DNA of 44,706 nucleotides from Prochlorococcus sp. AG-469-F22 (GTDB lineage Bacteria > Cyanobacteriota > Cyanobacteriia > PCC-6307 > Cyanobiaceae): the NCBI GenBank assembly GCA_003211655.1, contig QCSC01000002.1, forward strand, positions 1-44,706, read 5' to 3'. Shown piece by piece: positions 396 through 30,057 of the stretch. The first letter of the stretch is position 1; each line of letters begins with the position of its first letter. A program made the position numbers and the translations under genes. Under the pieces are notes generated by a model, which saw only the letters and a list, made by a program, of their open reading frames with translations, ran no database searches and was not told the DNA's origin.

Positions 396-1244
396 TTAAA
401 GTGATTCTAATTTCTCGCATGTTTTATTTATTGAATTTAAGCTACCAACATTAATTAATCCATAATAATCAAAATAATCAATATTATTATTTTGTACTGC
501 TTTTAACTTATTCCAGAAAGGTAAAGAGTTATATTGATTGTATTGCTCATTTCCAAATTTTATCAATATCAAATTATCTGGTTCCTCTTTTATAAGCCAT
601 TCAGGCGAAAGATTTAAATAACCTTTCATTCTTCCTGAGCCTTCTAACTCAGCTGTTAAATTTCTTAGATTAAAATTATCTAAAAGAGACCCTGCCCAAC
701 TTTTATTATTTGGGGATAATAATGGTTTTGTACTAACAAGAACAACAACTTTTTTATTCTTAGGTGAAGGATCTATAAAACAAGCATTTAGCTTATTAAA
801 AACAATTTTACTATCTGTATTTGTTATTTCTGAAATTTTATTAATTAAGCTAGTTAAATCAGACAATGAATTAACTTTTGTTTTAAGAACACCAATCCCC
901 ATTTCATCCAATTTTGATAATGTTTTATCATGAAACCCATCAGATCCAATCACTAATTTAGGATTAAGTGAAATAATTTTCTCAAGATTTGGAGGTGTTC
1001 TGCCTTCACTTACAGTAGGAATATTTTTAAAATTATCATTTTTTCTTAAGATAGAACTTCCAGGAATTCCAATTAATTCTTCTGGTTTTAGAGTATAAAT
1101 TATGTCCGAGGTTAAAGAATTTAAGCTAACAATTCCTATATTATTATTTGATTTTTTTTCTTTAATACTAGTTTGATTTTTATTAGAACATCCAAATGAA
1201 ACTAATAGGAAAATAAAGATAAGGAAAATTTTTCTTAATTTCAT
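396..1244 (-). CDS. ABC transporter substrate-binding lipoprotein (BtuF/FepB-like)
   Basis: 282 aa. The N-terminus is a lipoprotein signal with lipobox LVSFGC (Cys19), so it should be a membrane-tethered periplasmic binding protein. The body has the pattern of the periplasmic-binding-protein type 2 family used for iron-siderophore, haem or cobalamin: 'NNNIGIVSLNSLTSDIIYTL' at the start of lobe 1 and 'EKIISLNPKLVIGSDG' before the linker helix. It lies 24 bp downstream of the TonB-dependent receptor on the same strand, as the last gene of the uptake set. The substrate cannot be read from sequence; iron-siderophore is favoured over cobalamin because Prochlorococcus makes its own corrinoid, but that is inference. 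Confidence 0.85.
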   Translation of the reverse strand: MKLRKIFLIFIFLLVSFGCSNKNQTSIKEKKSNNNIGIVSLNSLTSDIIYTLKPEELIGIPGSSILRKNDNFKNIPTVSEGRTPPNLEKIISLNPKLVIGSDGFHDKTLSKLDEMGIGVLKTKVNSLSDLTSLINKISEITNTDSKIVFNKLNACFIDPSPKNKKVVVLVSTKPLLSPNNKSWAGSLLDNFNLRNLTAELEGSGRMKGYLNLSPEWLIKEEPDNLILIKFGNEQYNQYNSLPFWNKLKAVQNNNIDYFDYYGLINVGSLNSINKTCEKLESL

Positions 1245-1268
1245 TTGGCAGTAATTTTAAATAATTTA

Positions 1269-3611
1269 TTAGAAAACGAATTTAAATCCAACTTTAACAT
1301 TAGTACCTGGCTCAGAGAATTTATCTAAATCAGCAGCAGTAGGAGATTCTGTTTTAACAGTTTGATAATTATAATATTTAGTATCAAAAATATTATATAG
1401 TCCAACATCTAGACTTAAACGATCATTTACATTGTAGTTAGTAATTGCGTCAAAAATTGTACTTGCATCAGGTACAAAATATGTATTACTACTTGATGTT
1501 TTAGCAACACCAGTATAAGTTGCAATTAATTCTGAGCTCCATTTCTCAGAGTCTGAATCATAACGCAAACCAAATATTGCTTTAAAAGGATCAATGCTTG
1601 TGAGAGGAACATAATCACTTGTTGAAGTATCATTTCCTTCCGTCCAAGCAATAGAATTAATAAGACTAAAGCCACTTGGTTCTGCGTTGAAATTATAGTT
1701 TGAAGTAAGCTCTATTCCATATATTTCCGCTGAGTCTTTATTTTGAAACTGAAGTACCGAGTAGCCTGGGTCTGCTAATGGATGATCGGATGGTAATGTT
1801 TCATAACCATCAATTCTATTAGTAAAATTACTGAAAAAACCGTTAAGCCCAAAATTTAATTTATCATAATTACCATTTACACCAATTTCATAGTTATCAC
1901 TACTTTCTGACTTTAGATCAGGATTACTTACGACGTAATACCTATAAGCCAAATTTTGGAAAGTAGAGTTAATTTCGCTATATTGAGGAGCTCTAAATCC
2001 TTTGTTATATTTTCCATAAAAAGTTAGATTATCATTTGTTTTATAGAGAATTGCGAGACTAGGGTTAATAACTTCTTCCTTAAGATCCTTTGCTACTGAG
2101 GCTTTTTTCGACTGCAAATATTTTGAATCAGAAGTTGAATCTAAATTATAAGAATCAAATCTAATTCCAGGAATTATTTCCCATTTGTTATTGTCAAAAG
2201 AAATTTCATCTTGTAGGTAAATCCCCAATAATGTGGTGTCTGAATCCGGTGAATCTTTAACATTGGTAGTTGACGCTGCAATCATACCTTTACTAGATAA
2301 TCCTCCAGATTGATATTTTATTCTTTCTCTTGCATTACTTGTTTTGGAATAATCAATTCCATAAGTTAATCTGTGATTTGTTTCTTTATCAAATAAATCA
2401 TTTCTTAACTGTAAATTAGCTCCATAGCTATCATCCTCAAGATCATAATCATTTATAAATTCACGAGTTCCAAAGAAAGCAACCCCGAATTCGCTCTGTC
2501 CAGGAACTCCATAAAGGGGATTCGGAAATCCAGGATCATATCCAGCCTTTCTAGTAAGAATTGAATCGTCTTCAGAATACGCACTTTGATAATAGATTCC
2601 AAGTTTTGAGTAGTCGAAGAAATTTTCACTATCGGCATTATCATATTCATAATTTGCAGAGATTAAAGTCCTTTCAACATTTCTATCTTCAGTGCTTGCT
2701 GAATAACTTCTGCTTAAATTATCAGCTTTTAAAGTTGTATCTGAATCTTTATCTGTTTTTTCGATAATTAAGTTTAATCTTGAGTAATCATCAATATTCT
2801 TTACTAAGTTAGTAAAGAAATTCAAACCTTTACTTTCAAAATCATTAATATATTTTGCTTCAGATTTTACTTTGGTCTCATTTGAGTTTGACCTGGTTAC
2901 AACAAAAACACCTTCCAATCCAGAATCATCATCCCTTCCAGCCATTCTTAAAGAATTTGAAAAACCAGAATTAACTGAATTATAGTTATTTATAGTTTGA
3001 TAAAAAGATGTCTCTCCATCCTTTAGTAAATCTTCTGGATATAGAGATTGAAAAGTAACTACTCCTCCTAAAGCATCACTACCATAAAGTGAAGAAGCTG
3101 GACCTTTAAAAATTTCTGTTCCATTAAGAGCATTAAAATCTACCATCTCAGATCTAAAAATTGTGTAGCTAGATCCAAATTTATAAACTGCTGGAAGCCT
3201 TATATTATCTCTTTGCATTAATATTCTGTTTCCGCTGAAACCTCTAATAGAAATATCGCCTTGTCCATAATTGTTAAATGCCCCATCATTTTCAGACTTC
3301 AAGTCAACCGCTGCATCGTATCTAAAAAGATCTTTTAATTCTGTAACACCTCTCTCAATAATTTCTTCTTGGCCAATAACATTAACAGAAGCTGGGACAT
3401 TTTTTATTTCCCTAGGTGTTCTAGTTCCAGTAACTGAAATTTTTAAAGTCCCCGAATCGTCTGTTGTTGGATTTTCAGCTATTAAAGGTTCTGAATTAGG
3501 TGGAGTTAAAATTTTAGTTTTATTTTCAAATCCTTTATTGACCTGAGAATATATCGGTAATGAAAAAGATGCTGCAAATGCCGCAGCAAAAACCTTTTTT
3601 GTAAATTTCAC
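1269..3611 (-). CDS. TonB-dependent outer-membrane receptor
   Basis: 780 aa, GTG start at 3611. It has a signal peptide (MKFTKKVFAAAFAASFSLPIYSQ region), then a possible TonB box near 'GTLKISVTGTR', and a plug domain at roughly residues 55-190 ('PASVNVIGQEEIIERGV', 'DISIRGFSGNR', 'IEIFKGPASSLYGSDALGG'-like segment). The C-terminal barrel has repeated alternating strands, the 'NPDLKSESSDNYEIGV' signature typical of siderophore/haem receptors, and ends in Phe. It would import a ligand using TonB energy. It lies between the ABC ATPase (198 bp upstream) and the binding lipoprotein. This type of receptor is rare in Prochlorococcus and is an accessory trait. Confidence 0.9.
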   Translation of the reverse strand: MKFTKKVFAAAFAASFSLPIYSQVNKGFENKTKILTPPNSEPLIAENPTTDDSGTLKISVTGTRTPREIKNVPASVNVIGQEEIIERGVTELKDLFRYDAAVDLKSENDGAFNNYGQGDISIRGFSGNRILMQRDNIRLPAVYKFGSSYTIFRSEMVDFNALNGTEIFKGPASSLYGSDALGGVVTFQSLYPEDLLKDGETSFYQTINNYNSVNSGFSNSLRMAGRDDDSGLEGVFVVTRSNSNETKVKSEAKYINDFESKGLNFFTNLVKNIDDYSRLNLIIEKTDKDSDTTLKADNLSRSYSASTEDRNVERTLISANYEYDNADSENFFDYSKLGIYYQSAYSEDDSILTRKAGYDPGFPNPLYGVPGQSEFGVAFFGTREFINDYDLEDDSYGANLQLRNDLFDKETNHRLTYGIDYSKTSNARERIKYQSGGLSSKGMIAASTTNVKDSPDSDTTLLGIYLQDEISFDNNKWEIIPGIRFDSYNLDSTSDSKYLQSKKASVAKDLKEEVINPSLAILYKTNDNLTFYGKYNKGFRAPQYSEINSTFQNLAYRYYVVSNPDLKSESSDNYEIGVNGNYDKLNFGLNGFFSNFTNRIDGYETLPSDHPLADPGYSVLQFQNKDSAEIYGIELTSNYNFNAEPSGFSLINSIAWTEGNDTSTSDYVPLTSIDPFKAIFGLRYDSDSEKWSSELIATYTGVAKTSSSNTYFVPDASTIFDAITNYNVNDRLSLDVGLYNIFDTKYYNYQTVKTESPTAADLDKFSEPGTNVKVGFKFVF

Positions 3612-3809
3612 TTAAAAGCCTCACACTTTTATTAATTACTATTAATTCTTATGTTGAAAAAATTATTTTGAATTTTTTTTAAGTAACTTTTTTTACTAAA
3701 AAAATTTTTTGACTTGAAATCGAAAAAAAAGTTATAAATTAAAATAACTCAAAATACTTTTTTTTGTATTATTTAATACTTTTACTTTTAATGTTTTGAT
3801 CGAAAGACA
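3612..3809. other. AT-rich spacer upstream of the receptor gene
   Basis: About 200 bases of A/T runs between the ABC ATPase stop and the receptor start. It holds a direct repeat of ATTAATT separated by three bases around 3630-3648, close to where a promoter and a Fur operator for the receptor would be expected. No ORF or hairpin terminator stands out. Confidence 0.4.
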
Positions 3810-4592
3810 TTAATTATTCAAGGATTTTATTGCACAAATTTGTTTTCCTACTGAGGTATTAATATATTCTGATTCTACTGAAAAAGCATCTTTTATTATC
3901 TTTTTAGATAATGCATTAATAGGTTTATCAATAGCTAATAATTTGCCTTCTTTTAAAACAGCTAATCTGTCGCAATATCTTGCAGCCAAATTAATATCAT
4001 GGATAACAGATAAGATAGTTAAGTTATTTTTTTTATTTAAAATTTTTATCAGATCTAACATCTGGAGTTGGAAATTAATATCTAAGAAAGTTGTTGGTTC
4101 ATCTAAAAGTATTATTTTTGTTTTTTGAGCAATTGTAAGTGCTAGATATGCACGTTGACATTGTCCTCCTGATAAAGAAGTTAATTCATAGTCAGAATAT
4201 TTCTTCAAGTCGCATAACTCTAAAGCCTCTTTAATTATTGAAAAATCTTCTTTACTCCAATCAAATTCCCAAAAATATTTATGAGGGGATCTTCCTAGAG
4301 ATACTAATTCTTTTACAGTTATAGGCAAATTAGAATTAATTTTTTGCGGAAGATATGAAATAATTTTGGCTAAATTTTTTGTATTTATAGATTTCATACT
4401 TGATTTATTTATTAAAATTTCTCCATTTTGTGTAGGAATAATTTTTGCAATTCCTTTTAATAAAGTTGATTTCCCAGATCCATTAGAGCCTATTATTCCA
4501 ACCCACTCCCCAGATTTAATTTTTAAATCTAGGTTTTGAATAATTGTATTACCTTCATAACCCGTAGAGAAATTTTTTAAAGATAAATCCAT
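3810..4592 (-). CDS. Iron-siderophore/cobalamin-type ABC transporter ATPase (FecE/BtuD-like)
   Basis: 260 aa, usual length for the family. Walker A GSNGSGKST at residues 35-43, a Q-loop segment 'ISYLPQKI', signature LSGGQ near residue 140, Walker B 'IILLDEPT', and a switch His in 'SVIHDINLAARYCDR', which is characteristic of the FecE/FhuC/BtuD branch. It powers the inner-membrane step of import. Its ATG shares the base at 4592 with the stop of the permease gene just upstream, so the two are translationally coupled. The exact ligand cannot be told from the ATPase. Confidence 0.92.
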   Translation of the reverse strand: MDLSLKNFSTGYEGNTIIQNLDLKIKSGEWVGIIGSNGSGKSTLLKGIAKIIPTQNGEILINKSSMKSINTKNLAKIISYLPQKINSNLPITVKELVSLGRSPHKYFWEFDWSKEDFSIIKEALELCDLKKYSDYELTSLSGGQCQRAYLALTIAQKTKIILLDEPTTFLDINFQLQMLDLIKILNKKNNLTILSVIHDINLAARYCDRLAVLKEGKLLAIDKPINALSKKIIKDAFSVESEYINTSVGKQICAIKSLNN

Positions 4593-5593
4593 CAGTTCAT
4601 ACCTATTTTTTTTGATGATCTTTTATATAAAATTATTATAAAAATTGGTGCTCCTAATAAAGAGGTAACTATTCCAACTGGAATTTCAATAGAACCTGAT
4701 CTCGCAATTAAATCTGCTGCACTTAATGTTAATCCCCCTGTAAGGGCTGAAAAAGGTAAAACATATTTGTAATCATTTCCTATTAGTAATCTCGAGAAGT
4801 GAGGAACTACAAGTCCAATAAAACCAATTAAACCACCAATAGAAACTGCGCTTGCTGCTAAAAGTGTTGCCACAAGTCCAATTAGACATCTTGATCTCAA
4901 TAAAGAGTTTCCAAGGCTTGTTGATAACTCTTCCCCTAAGGCTAATAAATTTAACTGCTTTGATAGGAATAGTCCTACTAATAAAGCTAATAAAATTGGA
5001 ATCCAAGTGATTTTAATTTCACTCCATCCCCTTGCATTCAAACTGCCTATTAACCAAGTTAAAGCAGCTTGAATTCTTCCATCTTCTACTTGCAAGATTA
5101 GAGTGGCTTGAATTGCCCCAAATAAACTACTTAATGCAACACCTCCTAAGATTAATCTTTCAACAGATATTTTATTTTCACTCTTTGCAAGAATGAAAAC
5201 TATTATCGTTGTGAATACAGCACCAAACCAAGCCGCTATTGGCATAAAAATTTGAGCTAATCCAAAACTTATAAATGAGACAATAACTAAACCAGACCCT
5301 GCTGATATTCCTAACAAATAAGGACTTGCTAAACCATTCCTCAGCATACCTTGGAGAAGTGCTCCTGACATACCTAAGGAAGAACCAACTAATAATGAAG
5401 CTAATAATCTAGGTAATCTTAGATCCCAAATAATAGTCTTATTTATTTCTTCACCCCTTTGAAAAATTGCTAACCAGATATCTTCATTCGAAATATAAAC
5501 TGAACCTTTAGCTAATGAAAATATAGAAATAATTATTAAAAGGACAATAACTGTTGATAAAGAAAATAAAAATCTCGTTTTAAATAATTTAAT
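4592..5593 (-). CDS. FecCD/BtuC-type ABC permease, probable ATT start
   Basis: The ORF track begins at an internal Met (5371), but the same frame stays open upstream to a stop near 5630 and clearly encodes the missing family N-terminus: a first membrane helix and 'RLPRLLASLLVGSSLGMSG', the classic FecCD loop. There is no ATG, GTG or TTG in this extension. The best start is ATT at 5593-5591, preceded by AGAGGT with 6 bases of spacing, giving 333 aa, the normal length for this family. About 9-10 membrane helices and the C-terminal 'GAPIFIIILYKRS' are present. It forms the membrane channel with the overlapping ATPase. The family call is firm; the ATT start is inferred. Confidence 0.82.
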   Translation of the reverse strand: MKLFKTRFLFSLSTVIVLLIIISIFSLAKGSVYISNEDIWLAIFQRGEEINKTIIWDLRLPRLLASLLVGSSLGMSGALLQGMLRNGLASPYLLGISAGSGLVIVSFISFGLAQIFMPIAAWFGAVFTTIIVFILAKSENKISVERLILGGVALSSLFGAIQATLILQVEDGRIQAALTWLIGSLNARGWSEIKITWIPILLALLVGLFLSKQLNLLALGEELSTSLGNSLLRSRCLIGLVATLLAASAVSIGGLIGFIGLVVPHFSRLLIGNDYKYVLPFSALTGGLTLSAADLIARSGSIEIPVGIVTSLLGAPIFIIILYKRSSKKIGMN

Positions 5594-13008: not shown

Positions 13009-13202
13009 TATTTATAGCTTTAATAATTTACTTGAAAATTGAATATTTTGAATTATTGAATTTAAATTCATAAAAAATTTTAAATGTATAATTAACTAAC
13101 ATTTTTTATTTCAATTAAAGTCTTAAGGCCTACATATCAAGGGTTTATAAAGATTGCCAGAGGTAAGATAATCTCCTAATTTGAGGGACAAGGCAATAAC
13201 TG

Positions 13203-13622
13203 TTAAACCATGACCAATACTTGGGCAACTTGGAAAAATACTTGCAAGCTGAAAGTTAGTTCAGACCACTCAACATATTGTCCATATACAAAGTAACTTC
13301 CCATCATCATAGTTATGAACCAAATAATTCTGAAACCCCATAAATTTTTCTTATGAAGATATTTTTCTGCAAAGTAAATTACAAAACTTGAAGAGACTAA
13401 AATTACAGTATTTATAAGCGGCATTTTTATATCAATCCCATTTATACCTGTGGGGTACCAAACAGGTGCACTAATTTTAAGGACACTGTAACCTACAAAA
13501 AAAGCAAAAAATATAATACTTTCCGAGCATAAAAATATAATAAATCCAGTCATATTATGGCCATCATGTTTTATATGACCTGGTTTATGATTTAAAGATA
13601 AATTTTGATTTTCTGTAAGCAT
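13203..13622 (-). CDS. ctaE: Haem-copper oxidase subunit III, shortened at the C-terminus
   Basis: 139 aa against about 200 for cyanobacterial CtaE. Helices I-III are recognisable ('FIIFLCSESIIFFAFFVGYS', 'LINTVILVSSSFVIYFAEKY', 'FITMMMGSYFVYGQYVEWSE'). After 'ELTFSL' the frame runs into 'QVFFQVAQVLVMV' and stops; the usual 'FYxLTGFHGLHV' and last two helices are missing, and neither other frame downstream restores them, although one stays open for about 40 codons. Its start follows the subunit I stop by 2 bp in the operon. It is probably a non-functional or reduced subunit; subunit III is not part of the catalytic core. Confidence 0.8.
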   Translation of the reverse strand: MLTENQNLSLNHKPGHIKHDGHNMTGFIIFLCSESIIFFAFFVGYSVLKISAPVWYPTGINGIDIKMPLINTVILVSSSFVIYFAEKYLHKKNLWGFRIIWFITMMMGSYFVYGQYVEWSELTFSLQVFFQVAQVLVMV

Positions 13623-13624
13623 AT

Positions 13625-15316
13625 TTAAATTTTTTTGAGTGACTTCTCTATATAAAATTGCTCATCTTCAACAAATGGTTTATCTAGGCCATAGCAATAT
13701 GGTTCATTTAAAACCGTTGGGATATCTTCTTCAAAATTTTCGTGAGGAGGTGGAGAGGGAAGTAGCCATTCTAATCCTATAGCTTTCCAAGGATTTGGAG
13801 GAGCTGATTTTCCTCTTACCCACGAACTAACCATATTTAAGATAAAAGGAATAGAGGCAACGCCAAGAATAAAAGCTCCAATACTTGCTAAGACATTCCA
13901 TATAGCAAACTCAGGATCATATGATGCAACTCTTCTAGGCATTCCTAATAAACCAGCCCAATGAAGTGGTAACCAATTTAAAGTCGCTCCAATAAAAGTA
14001 AGCGCAAAATGTACTTTCCCTAAACCTTCATAAAACATCTTTCCTGTAAATTTTGGGAACCAGTGATAAATAGCTGCAAATATTCCAAAAGCAATGGTAT
14101 TAAAAATAATATAGTGAAAATGAGCAACAACAAAATATGTATTTCCAACATGTATGTCTACTGGGACTGTTGCAAGCATTACTCCCGTAATACCTCCAAA
14201 GATAAAATTAAATAATCCCCCCAAACAAAAAAGCATCGGTGTACTTAACCTAATATTCCCACCCCATAATGTAGCAATCCAAGCAAATACTTTTACACCT
14301 GTAGGTACAGCAATGAGCATAGTAGTAAACATAAATAAATTCCTCATCCACATCGGTGTACCTGTATAGAACATGTGATGAACCCAAACAACTAGAGAAA
14401 GAATAGTTATACCAAAAGAAGCTACAGCAACAAATTTATATCCAAAAAGAGGTTTTCTTGAATAAACAGGAAAAAGTTCAGAAAATATTCCAAATACAGG
14501 GAGAACCATCACATAGACAGCAGGATGAGAATAAAACCAGAAAAAATGTTGAAACAAAACAGGGTCACCTCCTCCCTCAACCCTGAAAAAACTTGTTCCA
14601 AATGTAAGATCAAAAAATAACATTATCGCTCCACCAGTCAAGGCAGGTAATCCTAGTAATTGCAATAATTGAGCTGCTAAAACAGTCCAAATAAAAATTG
14701 GCATTTTGAAAAAACCCATCCCTGGTGCTCGCATTCTTATTATTGTCGTAACAAAGTTGACAGCACCAATAATCGAAGAAATCCCAGATAACGATATTGC
14801 TATTATCCACAACATTTCCCCATTTATAATTTTTCCCAGAGGATTTTGAATACTTATAGGTGGATATGACCACCAACCTGAAGAGGCTGGACCTCCAGGG
14901 ACAAAAAAACTTAAAAGTAGAATTATTGAGAAAATTGGCACTAGCCAAAATGCTAAGGCATTAAGCTTTGGGAAAGCCATATCTGGCGCTCCTATCATTG
15001 GAGGTACAAGTAAATTTGTTAAGCCACTTAAAATAGGGAAAAGGAACAAAAAAAGCATTATTGTTCCGTGCATAGTGTAGAGGCCGTTGTAAACGGTTGG
15101 ATCAAAAAGATCTGAAGGGGGTGTTATTAACTCTCCTCTAATCAACATCCCTAAAAGACCGCCTATTAATAAGAAAAAAAGAGCTGTGACTATATATTGA
15201 ATGCCAATTACTTTGGCATCTGTATTAAAACTAAAAAACCTTTTCCAATCATTTGGCCCCTTAGGATAAGAATTTTTCGTCTTAACTAATCTTGGATCAT
15301 AATTAAAGATTGTCAT
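13625..15316 (-). CDS. ctaD: Haem-copper oxidase subunit I, A2-type (alternative oxidase, ARTO-like)
   Basis: 563 aa with twelve membrane helices. It holds low-spin haem, high-spin haem and CuB and reduces oxygen to water. 'GLTNLLVPPMIGAPDMAFPK' supplies the D-channel Asp, 'VWVHHMFYTGTPMW' the two CuB histidines, and 'VGNTYFVVAHFHYIIF' the haem ligands in helix X. The helix VI motif is WFYSHPAVYVMVLP: the usual Glu of GHPEVY is Ala and the YSHP pair is present, which defines A2-type oxidases. This and the subunit II change point to the alternative cyanobacterial oxidase rather than the mitochondrial-like Cox. It lies 8 bp after ctaC. Confidence 0.95.
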   Translation of the reverse strand: MTIFNYDPRLVKTKNSYPKGPNDWKRFFSFNTDAKVIGIQYIVTALFFLLIGGLLGMLIRGELITPPSDLFDPTVYNGLYTMHGTIMLFLFLFPILSGLTNLLVPPMIGAPDMAFPKLNALAFWLVPIFSIILLLSFFVPGGPASSGWWSYPPISIQNPLGKIINGEMLWIIAISLSGISSIIGAVNFVTTIIRMRAPGMGFFKMPIFIWTVLAAQLLQLLGLPALTGGAIMLFFDLTFGTSFFRVEGGGDPVLFQHFFWFYSHPAVYVMVLPVFGIFSELFPVYSRKPLFGYKFVAVASFGITILSLVVWVHHMFYTGTPMWMRNLFMFTTMLIAVPTGVKVFAWIATLWGGNIRLSTPMLFCLGGLFNFIFGGITGVMLATVPVDIHVGNTYFVVAHFHYIIFNTIAFGIFAAIYHWFPKFTGKMFYEGLGKVHFALTFIGATLNWLPLHWAGLLGMPRRVASYDPEFAIWNVLASIGAFILGVASIPFILNMVSSWVRGKSAPPNPWKAIGLEWLLPSPPPHENFEEDIPTVLNEPYCYGLDKPFVEDEQFYIEKSLKKI

Positions 15317-15324
15317 ATCAGATT

Positions 15325-16260
15325 TTAACTATCATGAAGTCGTGCTTCAGAACCAACCTCATTAACTTTTGGATCAGGAGCAGGTTTAACTGTAGCCCAA
15401 CCTCTATTACCATTTCTTAGCCTTTTTTCATACAATCGGCCAGCAGGATTTAATCCATTTTGAGGTTCTTTTTTTACAGTCTCCTTAATCCATTTGTAAA
15501 AAATTTCTTCAGACTCTACGATTACATTTGTTTGGTTTTCTGAGAAATATGCACCACTAAACATTGCATCTCTTAATCTAAATACACCCTCTTTCGTAGG
15601 TGTAAGAGAATATGTAATTACACTTCCAGGAATAATATCTTGCTTTAATCTAAATGCCGGGACATAAAAGCTATGAATAACATCTTCTGTTATTAATCTA
15701 AAATTTGATCTTTTATCAACTGGCAAATGTAATTCAGAACTATGTATTCCATTTGGATAAACAAACTCCCAATTCCATTGTCTTGAAATCACATCAATAG
15801 GTCCATAATCAAAAACTTTTTTCTCCTCAACAAAAGGAACCTCCGCTCCAAAATCATATTTTATTTTTGACCCTAAGTTTTCAAGTTTATAATTAACACT
15901 TGTTGAGTATGTTGATATCCCCAAAACTAAAATAAGTGGAACTATTGTCCATATAATTTCAAGTTTTAAATTGCCTTCTAATGGTTCGCCATTACTTTCA
16001 TCATACTTGGGGGCTCTATTGAATACTAAAATCCAAGCCATTGTCCCTGTACAACCTAGAAAGATAAAAGTACCAATAGTTGTTTCAAAAGCAAATAGAT
16101 TATCTACATAATGAGCAGCTTCTGAGGCTTGTATTGGTAACCAACTATAAGACCAATATCCCATTAATAAACTAACTACGACGTTTAGAACTACTGCAAT
16201 AATAATTATAATAATGCTTGAAAAATTCTTTTTCTTTAACCTTCTTATTTTAGTATTCAT
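15325..16260 (-). CDS. ctaC: Haem-copper oxidase subunit II lacking CuA ligands (ARTO-like)
   Basis: 311 aa. Two N-terminal helices (about 15-37 and 100-120) carry a periplasmic or lumenal cupredoxin domain. The CuA centre normally needs two Cys, one Glu, two His and a Met. His196 in 'DVIHSFYVPAFRLKQDIIPG' is kept, but the loop that should read CxxxC is RDAMFSGAYF: the positions of Cys, Glu, Cys and His are Asp231, Met233, Ser235 and Phe239. The only Cys is in a helix. The protein therefore cannot bind CuA and is not expected to take electrons from cytochrome c directly; CuA-less subunits occur in quinol oxidases and in cyanobacterial ARTO. The conserved aromatic 'QWNWEF' remains. Start overlaps the previous stop by 4 bp. 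Confidence 0.95.
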   Translation of the reverse strand: MNTKIRRLKKKNFSSIIIIIIAVVLNVVVSLLMGYWSYSWLPIQASEAAHYVDNLFAFETTIGTFIFLGCTGTMAWILVFNRAPKYDESNGEPLEGNLKLEIIWTIVPLILVLGISTYSTSVNYKLENLGSKIKYDFGAEVPFVEEKKVFDYGPIDVISRQWNWEFVYPNGIHSSELHLPVDKRSNFRLITEDVIHSFYVPAFRLKQDIIPGSVITYSLTPTKEGVFRLRDAMFSGAYFSENQTNVIVESEEIFYKWIKETVKKEPQNGLNPAGRLYEKRLRNGNRGWATVKPAPDPKVNEVGSEARLHDS

Positions 16261-16934
16261 TGGAAAATTTGATTAAGATCTTCTCCTCTTACAAGAAGTT
16301 GGTCAGCTGTAATATGAACTCCAAAGTCACTTGCAAGCCATGCTCCTAAACTGCCATGAAGCCCCATCAAAATTAAAATTAAGGCCCCTAAAGATATGTA
16401 AGACCAAGAGACTTGTCTTCCGAAATCCTTCCTAAAAACAAATCTTTGATAACCCCTCCATATAGTCATTGAAATCATTACAAATAGAATAGCTACTCCG
16501 CCTATGGCATGCCAAAGCATTGTAGATATTGCACTTTGACCTAAAATATTTTTCACTTCAGGTATCGGAACTGCGAGTAACATTTCAAAGAAACCAGTTG
16601 CAACCGTAAAGAAAGTTATAAAGGAAGCGGCAAGAATGTTATACCAACCAACATCATGAAATCCAACTCTCGTAACTGGAAAAGAAAGAAATCTTAGAAT
16701 TCTTTTTTCAAAAGGATAAAAGGCTCCTGCAATATCAAAGAATATTCCAATAGCAAATAAACCTATAGTTAAATGAACAAGATTTGGATGCAATGGAATT
16801 TTATAAGGCAAATCATTTGGACCCAACTTGTCTGATATTTCACTAATTGGTGATTTTATTAAAAGACAGAAAAGGTAGTTAATACTTTTTAAACCACCTA
16901 TTTGCAAAGAAAGATAATGATCAAAAATTATCAT
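16257..16934 (-). CDS. DUF2231 membrane protein, oxidase-operon associated (second)
   Basis: 225 aa with four to five hydrophobic helices. 'IPLHPNLVHLTIGLFAIGIF' is the DUF2231 entry motif with its paired His, and 'STMLWHAIGGVAILFVM' a second His-bearing helix, which could bind haem or copper. It overlaps the DUF2231 gene before it (ATGA) and ctaC after it (ATGA), so it belongs to the oxidase operon. Pairs of such genes ahead of alternative-oxidase genes occur in other cyanobacteria; their job (electron donor or assembly) is not established. The first 35 residues are poorly typical, so the real start might be further in. Confidence 0.85.
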   Translation of the reverse strand: MIIFDHYLSLQIGGLKSINYLFCLLIKSPISEISDKLGPNDLPYKIPLHPNLVHLTIGLFAIGIFFDIAGAFYPFEKRILRFLSFPVTRVGFHDVGWYNILAASFITFFTVATGFFEMLLAVPIPEVKNILGQSAISTMLWHAIGGVAILFVMISMTIWRGYQRFVFRKDFGRQVSWSYISLGALILILMGLHGSLGAWLASDFGVHITADQLLVRGEDLNQIFQ

Positions 16935-17485
16935 AATAATCCATCTCTAACAGCCTGAACAACTGGTACAGTATGCAATCCATAAATCCAAACCAACATA
17001 TCTCCCAAATAAACCTGAGTACAAACTAAGGCTGCTAAAATCAAATCTATAAAAACAAACCCTTTTGATAGAACTTGAGGATTACTTTGTCTTGATACAT
17101 ATCGCCATCCTGTTATAACCGAGAGTACTCCTGCTAAGGACCATCCTATTGTGCTGTGATAGTTCAAAACATCTCTTGATACTCCATATGGATTACTTAG
17201 TCCCGCCTCAATTTGACCAAATACAATAGCAATAAAAATTGCTATTGTAGCAACGGTTAAATTTAAAAAACTTACTTCAAATAAATTAGGCTTTTTAAAA
17301 ATTATTCCAACAAAATCAAAGACTACAGCACCTAAAGCCATAGCAATTACAAAATGAACAACAATAGGATGAATGACATCAATCCAAGGAAGATTTTTTT
17401 CATTCAAGGCAGGAAGCAAACTTGAAAATATTGAAAAAGTATTGATCAATATATAAGCCATAAAATTAAAGGTTGAATGGACCAT
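16931..17485 (-). CDS. DUF2231 membrane protein, oxidase-operon associated (first)
   Basis: 184 aa, the first gene of the oxidase operon. Four helices; the DUF2231 motif is 'WIDVIHPIVVHFVIAMALGA' with His residues in the first helix, and 'LNYHSTIGWSLAGVLSV' with another His in the third. It resembles the next gene and is probably its paralogue. The conserved His pairs in opposite helices could carry haem b, which would let the pair pass electrons from quinol to a CuA-less oxidase; this is inference. The stop overlaps the next start by 4 bp. Confidence 0.85.
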   Translation of the reverse strand: MVHSTFNFMAYILINTFSIFSSLLPALNEKNLPWIDVIHPIVVHFVIAMALGAVVFDFVGIIFKKPNLFEVSFLNLTVATIAIFIAIVFGQIEAGLSNPYGVSRDVLNYHSTIGWSLAGVLSVITGWRYVSRQSNPQVLSKGFVFIDLILAALVCTQVYLGDMLVWIYGLHTVPVVQAVRDGLL

Positions 17486-28410: not shown

Positions 28411-30057
28411 TTGGATATAAATCCTTTTGATGCAATCATAGTAGGTTCAGGCGCAACAGGAGGAGTAGCTGCACTTACTTTGGCCGAACAAGGAATTAGA
28501 GTTTTAGTAATAGAAGCAGGACCTCAAATTAAAAGAAATGAGGCTAGTAGTAATGAGCCGAAAGATACCTTAAACAGATTATCGGGAATAATCTCAAAGA
28601 AACATGCTAATCAAAGTCAACATCCTGGTTATTGGAAAAATAACCCTAATTTATATTCAAATGAATTAAATCATCCTTATAGCCAATCAAAAGAGAAGCC
28701 ATTCCTTTGGACTCAAGGAAAGCAATATGGAGGTAGATCATTAACTTGGGGAGGTATTACCTTGAGATTTTCTCCAGATGATTTTCATCCATCAAAAAAA
28801 GATGGGTACGGACCAGATTGGCCTATAACCTACGATGAATTATCACCTCATTATGATTTTATTGAGAAATTTTGTGGAATTTATGGACAAAAAGATAACA
28901 TTGAAGAGGTTCCAAACGGGAAATATATAGGTGAAATACCTCTCACAAGTACTGAAAGTATTTTTGGTAATCAAGTTAAATCAAAATTAAACTACCCATT
29001 TATTCAATCTAGAGGATTTGACCGTAACTCCTCAGTTAAAGAAGACCAATGGCCGAGATCTTCAAGTGTCGGGACCACCCTTAAAAAAGCCATAAGCACA
29101 GGAAATGTTCAAATACTTTCTAATCACCTCGTAGAATCATTCGAAACAGACAAAGTAAATGAGCTAGCTTCAAAAATAATCATTGTAAATCTAGAAAATG
29201 GTCAAAGAATATCATTAAATTGCGATTTAATTATTCTATGTGCATCCACAATATCAACACTTAGAATTCTACTTAACTCAGAATCCAAATCAAATTCTTC
29301 AGGTTTTGAAGATACCTCCGGTAAGTTAGGAAAATTTTTGATGGATCATATTTCTATCTGTAGGTTTTTTTCAATTCCTAATACAATTCAGACAAAAAAT
29401 GAATTTAATTCTAATTCTTATCCTGACCTCTCGGGCGCAGGGAGTTTTTTCATACCCTTCGGGTCAAACTTACCTAAACCTGAAAGTATTAACTTTTTAA
29501 GAGGTTATGGAATTTGGGGAGCAATTGATAGGCTTGGAATCCCTAAATTTTTACAAAAAGAATTAAATTCTTCTACAGGTTTTCTAATCGCCCATGGTGA
29601 GGTCTTACCAAGAAAAGAAAATTCAGTAACTCTCTCTAAGAGAACAGATAGCTGGGGGATTCCAATCCCTCATATTGAATTCAAATGGAGTGAAAACGAA
29701 TTAAATATGGCTAAACATATGGAAAGTACGATAAGAGATTCAATAAAAGCGGCAGATGGAAAAATCAGAAGAATAGATGAGCTCATAAATATCCCATATG
29801 TAGGATTATTTACAGAAAAATCAATTGCACTTTCAGGAAATCCACCACCACCGGGATATTATATTCATGAAGTAGGGGGAGCAGCGATGGGATTTAGTGA
29901 GGAAGAAAGTGTCGTCAATAAATCAAATCAACTATGGAGATGCAAAAATGTCCTTGTAATAGATGGTGCATGTTGGCCGACTTCTTCATGGCAAAGTCCC
30001 ACCCTGACGATGATGGCCATAAGCAGAAGAGCTTGTTTAAATATTAAAAAGACTTAG
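28411..30057 (+). CDS. GMC-family FAD oxidoreductase
   Basis: 548 aa, TTG start. FAD-binding motif 'FDAIIVGSGATGGVAALTLA' at residues 6-25, ending 'RVLVIEAG'; a GMC motif 'WGGITLRFSPDDF'; C-terminal 'YIHEVGGAAMGFSEEESVVN' and 'NVLVIDGACWPTSSWQSPTL', with His in the position of the catalytic base. The family oxidises alcohols or sugars; the substrate is not predictable. No signal peptide is seen, so it is likely cytoplasmic. It converges on the DUF2811 gene with a 14-bp overlap. Confidence 0.9.
   Translation: MDINPFDAIIVGSGATGGVAALTLAEQGIRVLVIEAGPQIKRNEASSNEPKDTLNRLSGIISKKHANQSQHPGYWKNNPNLYSNELNHPYSQSKEKPFLWTQGKQYGGRSLTWGGITLRFSPDDFHPSKKDGYGPDWPITYDELSPHYDFIEKFCGIYGQKDNIEEVPNGKYIGEIPLTSTESIFGNQVKSKLNYPFIQSRGFDRNSSVKEDQWPRSSSVGTTLKKAISTGNVQILSNHLVESFETDKVNELASKIIIVNLENGQRISLNCDLIILCASTISTLRILLNSESKSNSSGFEDTSGKLGKFLMDHISICRFFSIPNTIQTKNEFNSNSYPDLSGAGSFFIPFGSNLPKPESINFLRGYGIWGAIDRLGIPKFLQKELNSSTGFLIAHGEVLPRKENSVTLSKRTDSWGIPIPHIEFKWSENELNMAKHMESTIRDSIKAADGKIRRIDELINIPYVGLFTEKSIALSGNPPPPGYYIHEVGGAAMGFSEEESVVNKSNQLWRCKNVLVIDGACWPTSSWQSPTLTMMAISRRACLNIKKT

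Follow-up and report, generated by a model that had tools for sequence, protein, structure and literature searches.

The question raised by this locus is which terminal oxidase is encoded by a Prochlorococcus gene pair whose subunit II has lost the CuA centre, and from where such an enzyme might draw its electrons. We analysed the whole 44,706-nucleotide stretch of contig QCSC01000002.1 from Prochlorococcus sp. AG-469-F22, here called the window (source assembly G000: 1.1 Mb, 80 contigs, 59% complete). Our main reading, to which we give a probability of roughly 0.88, is that the locus encodes the alternative respiratory terminal oxidase (ARTO, ctaC2D2E2), a claim that covers the identity of the enzyme and the anatomy of its cluster. 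ARTO is an already described enzyme found here in a new genome, and the initial annotation had recognized it correctly from subunit II. What is new here is the finding that ARTO sits within a cluster of six genes (DUF2231a-DUF2231b-ctaC2-ctaD2-ctaE2-GMC flavoprotein) at almost every locus examined.

The state of the CuA site was assessed in a joint alignment of the window CtaC2 with the normal Cox of the same genome, E. coli CyoA, 29 normal cyanobacterial Cox sequences and 57 ARTO rows; two rows of the alignment that are labelled Cox, L121 and L122, are ARTO copies by position. The ligand columns read H-C-E-C-H-M in 29/29 normal Cox and H-D-M-S-F-N in the window. This bore out the earlier observation that one His is kept and that Asp, Met, Ser and Phe stand at other ligand positions; the replacement of the sixth ligand, Met, by Asn had been absent from that list. 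Nearly all 57 ARTO rows have the pattern H-D-x-S-F-x, and as the third position varies freely, as does the sixth, the Met found there in the window is merely the commonest variant. Both ctaC2 and ctaD2 have intact reading frames and are under purifying selection, with dN/dS against relatives of 0.10-0.17 and about 0.03, respectively.

Subunit I retains a complete catalytic centre. Alignment of the window CtaD2 identified the heme and CuB ligands H106, H284, H333, H334, H419 and H421, the cross-linked tyrosine Y288, the K-channel lysine K362 and the D-channel aspartate D135, and all of these catalytic histidines, Y288, K362 and D135 are conserved in 54/54 ARTO sequences. A2-type heme-copper oxidases constitute the YSHPXV subfamily, in which YSHPXV replaces GHPEV. 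The window CtaD2 contains FWFYSHPAVY and is of this type; so, equally, are the normal cyanobacterial Cox, the Glu of GHPEVY being Ala in 54/54 ARTO and in 29/29 normal Cox, that of the same genome included. Thus, YSHPAV is present in subunit I as first described but is not the ARTO signature it was taken for; the criterion had to be corrected, because this motif is unusable for separating ARTO from normal cyanobacterial Cox and only subunit II is diagnostic. The cyanobacterial aa3-type Cox (ctaC1D1E1) belongs to the same superfamily and shares both YSHPAVY and the order of subunit genes with the window, but has an intact CuA site and forms a separate clade.

This separation was clear in a subunit I tree built from 46 ARTO and 29 Cox sequences with CyoB added, where the two sets split with a support of 98/95 and in 100% of bootstraps, and where the window CtaD2 grouped among the Prochlorococcus ARTO within the ARTO clade; the root is not readable from CyoB because its branch is very long. 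The initial annotation was right to name an alternative cyanobacterial oxidase without CuA, and the phylogeny that it proposed places CtaD2 with ARTO and not with Cox. The normal Cox, whose presence elsewhere in the genome had also been put forward as a check, was located through a further COX1 gene that lies on a different contig of the source assembly, where ctaC, ctaD and ctaE adjoin one another and the CuA motif is intact (CAELCGPYHGGM). That sequencing errors at the ligand codons, or a miscalled normal Cox, gave rise to the apparent loss of CuA is exceedingly improbable, since the same ligand pattern recurs in tens of independent genomes, dN/dS is low for both genes, a separate normal Cox is present and we found no evidence in favour of error.

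ARTO-type subunit II was detected in 17/266 Prochlorococcus genomes and in 198/390 genomes sampled across the class. Named Prochlorococcus carriers include MIT 9107 and MIT 9201, both of them high-light strains, HNLC1 and several AG- and AH- assemblies. The HNLC1 genome (G024; L043, L049) has ARTO genes at two places with broken frames and one partial ctaD, which is probably an assembly problem. The ctaC2-D2-E2 operon has been reported in most low-iron Prochlorococcus, where it is enriched, and shown in MIT 9201 (Dore et al. 2023; PMC10119275). The occurrence of ARTO in a high-light Prochlorococcus, singled out as notable when the window was first read, is accordingly not new, given that report and the presence of ARTO in MIT 9107 and MIT 9201. 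An Anabaena operon, alr2729-alr2730-coxB3A3C3 (cox3/qox), is also known (PMC6616624); like this ARTO operon, the window cluster has a subunit II devoid of CuA, a subunit I with heme-CuB ligands and a pair of small membrane proteins encoded ahead of subunit II. The two membrane-protein genes upstream of ctaC2, which encode DUF2231 proteins, occupy the place of alr2729 and alr2730, an equivalence by position and not by sequence. The window cluster differs from the Anabaena system in its truncated subunit III and in the deletion, in this assembly, of the GMC gene.

Table 1. Components of the ARTO cluster in the window, in order of transcription
Feature	Position	Strand	Description	Evidence
DUF2231a	16931..17485	(-)	184 aa small membrane protein, first cluster gene	ORF; PF09990 E 3.4e-33
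DUF2231b	16257..16934	(-)	225 aa, DUF2231a paralogue	ORF; PF09990 E 1.1e-36
ctaC2	15325..16260	(-)	oxidase subunit II without CuA, 311 aa	ORF; Pfam COX2/COX2_TM; alignment
ctaD2	13625..15316	(-)	oxidase subunit I, 563 aa	ORF; Pfam COX1; alignment; tree
ctaE2	13203..13622	(-)	truncated subunit III	ORF; Pfam COX3; comparison with relatives
Deletion junction	13241..13246	(-)	ctaE2 codon 127 to GMC gene tail; at most 5 bp shared	
GMC oxidoreductase gene remnant	13123..13244	(-)	last ~40 codons and stop, without start	

Transcription on the minus strand runs from DUF2231a through DUF2231b, ctaC2 and ctaD2 to a short ctaE2 (Table 1). The full cluster in the window extends from 13123 to 17485; the span first assigned to the oxidase, 13625-16260, does contain both oxidase genes but is too narrow, and the accompanying description mentions neither the companion genes nor the shortened subunit III with its underlying deletion. 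The window CtaE2 has 139 residues, the first 127 normal and the last 12 out of frame, so that the complete subunit III expected of ARTO is absent; complete relatives have 198 aa in Prochlorococcus and 195-205 aa elsewhere, except for one odd value (L225). After codon 127 the DNA runs on, out of frame, into the GMC gene, of which the final ~40 codons are left. Approximately 1.7 kb are gone, comprising the last 71 CtaE2 residues and all but the tail of the GMC gene, and no copy of this DNA was found elsewhere in this assembly. The deletion is unlike every Prochlorococcus relative checked.

Loss of the ctaE2 end and of the GMC gene may have inactivated ARTO in this lineage, leaving a dying cluster. 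We regard this as a serious contender that falls somewhat short of an even chance: the deletion is there in the assembly and the deleted DNA occurs nowhere else in it, but the remaining genes show no decay, and an assembly in 80 contigs at 59% completeness fits a genome amplified from a single cell, a procedure known to generate such chimeras. Even the protein encoded by the GMC remnant is 100% identical to that of a relative, which implies either a recent deletion or an artefact introduced by whole-genome amplification. The window copy has thus either been damaged recently or carries an artefact of single-cell genome amplification; the genes of the catalytic core look functional.

The companion genes are closely linked to ARTO well beyond the window. 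In a set of 40 loci drawn from many cyanobacterial families, ctaC2 is preceded by the DUF2231 pair every time (40/40), and ctaE2 is followed by a GMC oxidoreductase gene in 35 cases; the five exceptions, all outside the family of the window, indicate that GMC is not essential everywhere. Eighty further loci, found via DUF2231a and mostly from Prochlorococcus, Synechococcus and Cyanobium, had the whole six-gene order in 68 cases, and GMC adjoins ctaE2 in all 65 where the contig reaches that far; these loci partly overlap the set of 40 and so are not independent samples. Among 266 Prochlorococcus genomes, DUF2231a was present in 16/17 ARTO genomes versus 0/249 others (Fisher p 9e-25) and the ARTO-linked GMC in 15/17 versus 1/249 (p 2e-21); these p values are computed as if the genomes were independent samples, although they are not. 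In the lone GMC genome outside the ARTO set (G258), ctaE2 adjoins GMC at a contig end. Across 16 cyanobacterial genomes, each ARTO copy is mostly matched by one pair of DUF2231 genes, and a few singletons occur besides. One such solitary DUF2231 gene (L142 in G359) lies away from ARTO and has, by eye, Phe at the second invariant histidine (H44); singletons like L142 also occur in G376, G451, G523 and G626. A separate case is G026 (L046 / L150), an assembly with 4% contamination, in which ARTO genes lack the upstream DUF2231 pair. In the open-licence literature we found no paper dedicated to DUF2231 in cyanobacteria or to GMC proteins with terminal oxidases, and no mention of a GMC neighbour in the ARTO papers found there.

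The two DUF2231 proteins share a set of conserved histidines. H39, H44, H110 and H171 of DUF2231a are invariant in 55/55 ARTO-linked sequences, as are H49, H54, H142 and H207 of DUF2231b in 56/56. The profiles of the paralogues align (hhalign probability 98.8), the first two and the last histidine being equivalent and H110 lying beside H142 across a gap. AlphaFold2 models (pLDDT 81 for DUF2231a and 78 for DUF2231b) comprise four long helices and an extra N-terminal helix, and the helix boundaries orient all four histidines toward one end of the bundle. For the pair, mean net charge is +2.2 and +2.8 in the TM3-TM4 loop and -1.4 and -1.7 in the TM2-TM3 loop; because the loops opposite the histidines are positively charged, the positive-inside rule predicts the histidines on the lumenal or periplasmic face. 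Foldseek searches of both models against the PDB gave no match at E <= 1e-3, and so no fold was assigned to DUF2231; the weak matches were mixed (Cox subunit III, cytochrome b561, STEAP and unrelated helical bundles). Profile searches against PDB sequences gave none for DUF2231a and one chance-level match for DUF2231b. The pair is a candidate electron-entry module whose histidines could hold heme or metal.

The closest PDB relatives of the ARTO-linked GMC protein are an FAD glucose dehydrogenase (E 4e-30) and the large subunit of fructose dehydrogenase (E 1e-21). In contrast to these enzymes, the GMC protein lacks the CCxxxxC iron-sulfur cysteines in the alignment, and the column of their catalytic His is mostly Tyr. 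The window contains a second GMC-family oxidoreductase at 28411-30057 (548 aa), different from the ARTO-linked one. We considered and rejected the idea that this gene is the relocated ARTO partner, as the deleted DNA matches only the remnant in the assembly; the genome has no match to the ARTO-linked GMC at E <= 1e-150.

How electrons reach the enzyme can be narrowed down from these observations. A-type oxidases reduce O2 at the heme-CuB centre and move protons. By analogy, CtaD2 would reduce O2 at its intact heme-CuB centre and should translocate protons like the rest of its family. CtaC2 keeps the fold of subunit II without CuA, and loss of these ligands suggests that plastocyanin or cytochrome c6 should not deliver electrons by the usual route. 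The electrons would most likely come from the plastoquinol pool, and we consider plastoquinol the probable donor. Entry might be direct, at a site on subunit I unlike that of E. coli bo3, or through the two DUF2231 membrane proteins.

The first option corresponds to a plain bo3-like quinol oxidase, in which plastoquinol docks on subunit I, subunit II is structural, and the DUF2231 and GMC proteins serve assembly or some other purpose. This is a credible though minority reading. It agrees with the published annotation as a bo3-type quinol oxidase (PMC6616624), with a CuA site lost as in CyoA, and with a sequence search that also matches the quinol oxidase subunit II 6kob. The E. coli bo3 ubiquinol oxidase is similar to the window ARTO in its subunit II without CuA and in its catalytic centre, but differs at Glu286, which is Ala in the window, and in its quinol site. 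This site consists of R71, D75, H98 and Q101. In alignment with the E. coli CyoB reference (from NC_000913), the window CtaD2 has I, L, V and G at the four positions, and thus none is conserved; in addition, the DUF2231 pair is linked too tightly for a passenger. With both the CuA and the bo3 quinol-site residues absent, the initial description of the electron donor as unsettled holds.

Alternatively, the DUF2231 pair may take the place of CuA as a heme- or metal-bearing relay, passing electrons to the low-spin heme of subunit I. Four equivalent invariant histidines in both paralogues, their predicted location on the face opposite the positively charged loops, and one pair per oxidase all point in this direction; on the other hand, there is no significant fold match to a known cytochrome and the models contain no cofactor. 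We put the relay forward tentatively, as on balance unlikely, and an assembly role for the pair seems about equally so. The broader proposal, that ARTO comprises five or six proteins, with a heme- or metal-bearing DUF2231 pair in place of CuA and GMC as a possible electron source, is rather doubtful.

A further alternative to oxidase function fed by plastoquinol is that ARTO, at the plasma membrane, mainly reduces ferric iron itself or assists a ferric reductase, and serves iron uptake rather than respiration. Two papers cite lower ferric reduction and iron uptake in a Synechocystis ARTO mutant (PMC7676907, PMC10119275). Prochlorococcus with ARTO are enriched in a TonB-dependent iron/heme receptor (3/17 versus 3/249, p 0.004), whose gene lies about 10 kb from ARTO in the window. 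However, the residues needed to reduce O2 are all retained and strongly constrained, which would be needless for a pure ferric reductase, and no Fur-box match rose above chance with the patterns tried. We therefore think this quite unlikely as the main function; some contribution to ferric reduction or to iron uptake is possible by analogy and fits the low-iron distribution. Promoter and terminator scans of the DNA revealed nothing specific, promoters scoring below the shuffle mean. Elsewhere in the window, positions 396-5371, 8-10 kb from ARTO, encode a periplasmic binding protein, the TonB-dependent receptor, a FecE-like ATPase and a FecD/BtuC-like permease. The receptor passes the cut-off of TIGR01785, a model for heme/hemoglobin receptors, and occurs in 6/266 Prochlorococcus genomes, three of them ARTO carriers, with G258 among the others.

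Here we have placed a CuA-less oxidase of Prochlorococcus with ARTO, and the interest lies in its companion genes more than in the window itself. The conserved cluster, with one DUF2231 pair per oxidase, provides named and testable partners for the question of the electron donor, a question that bears on organisms dominating the iron-poor oceans.
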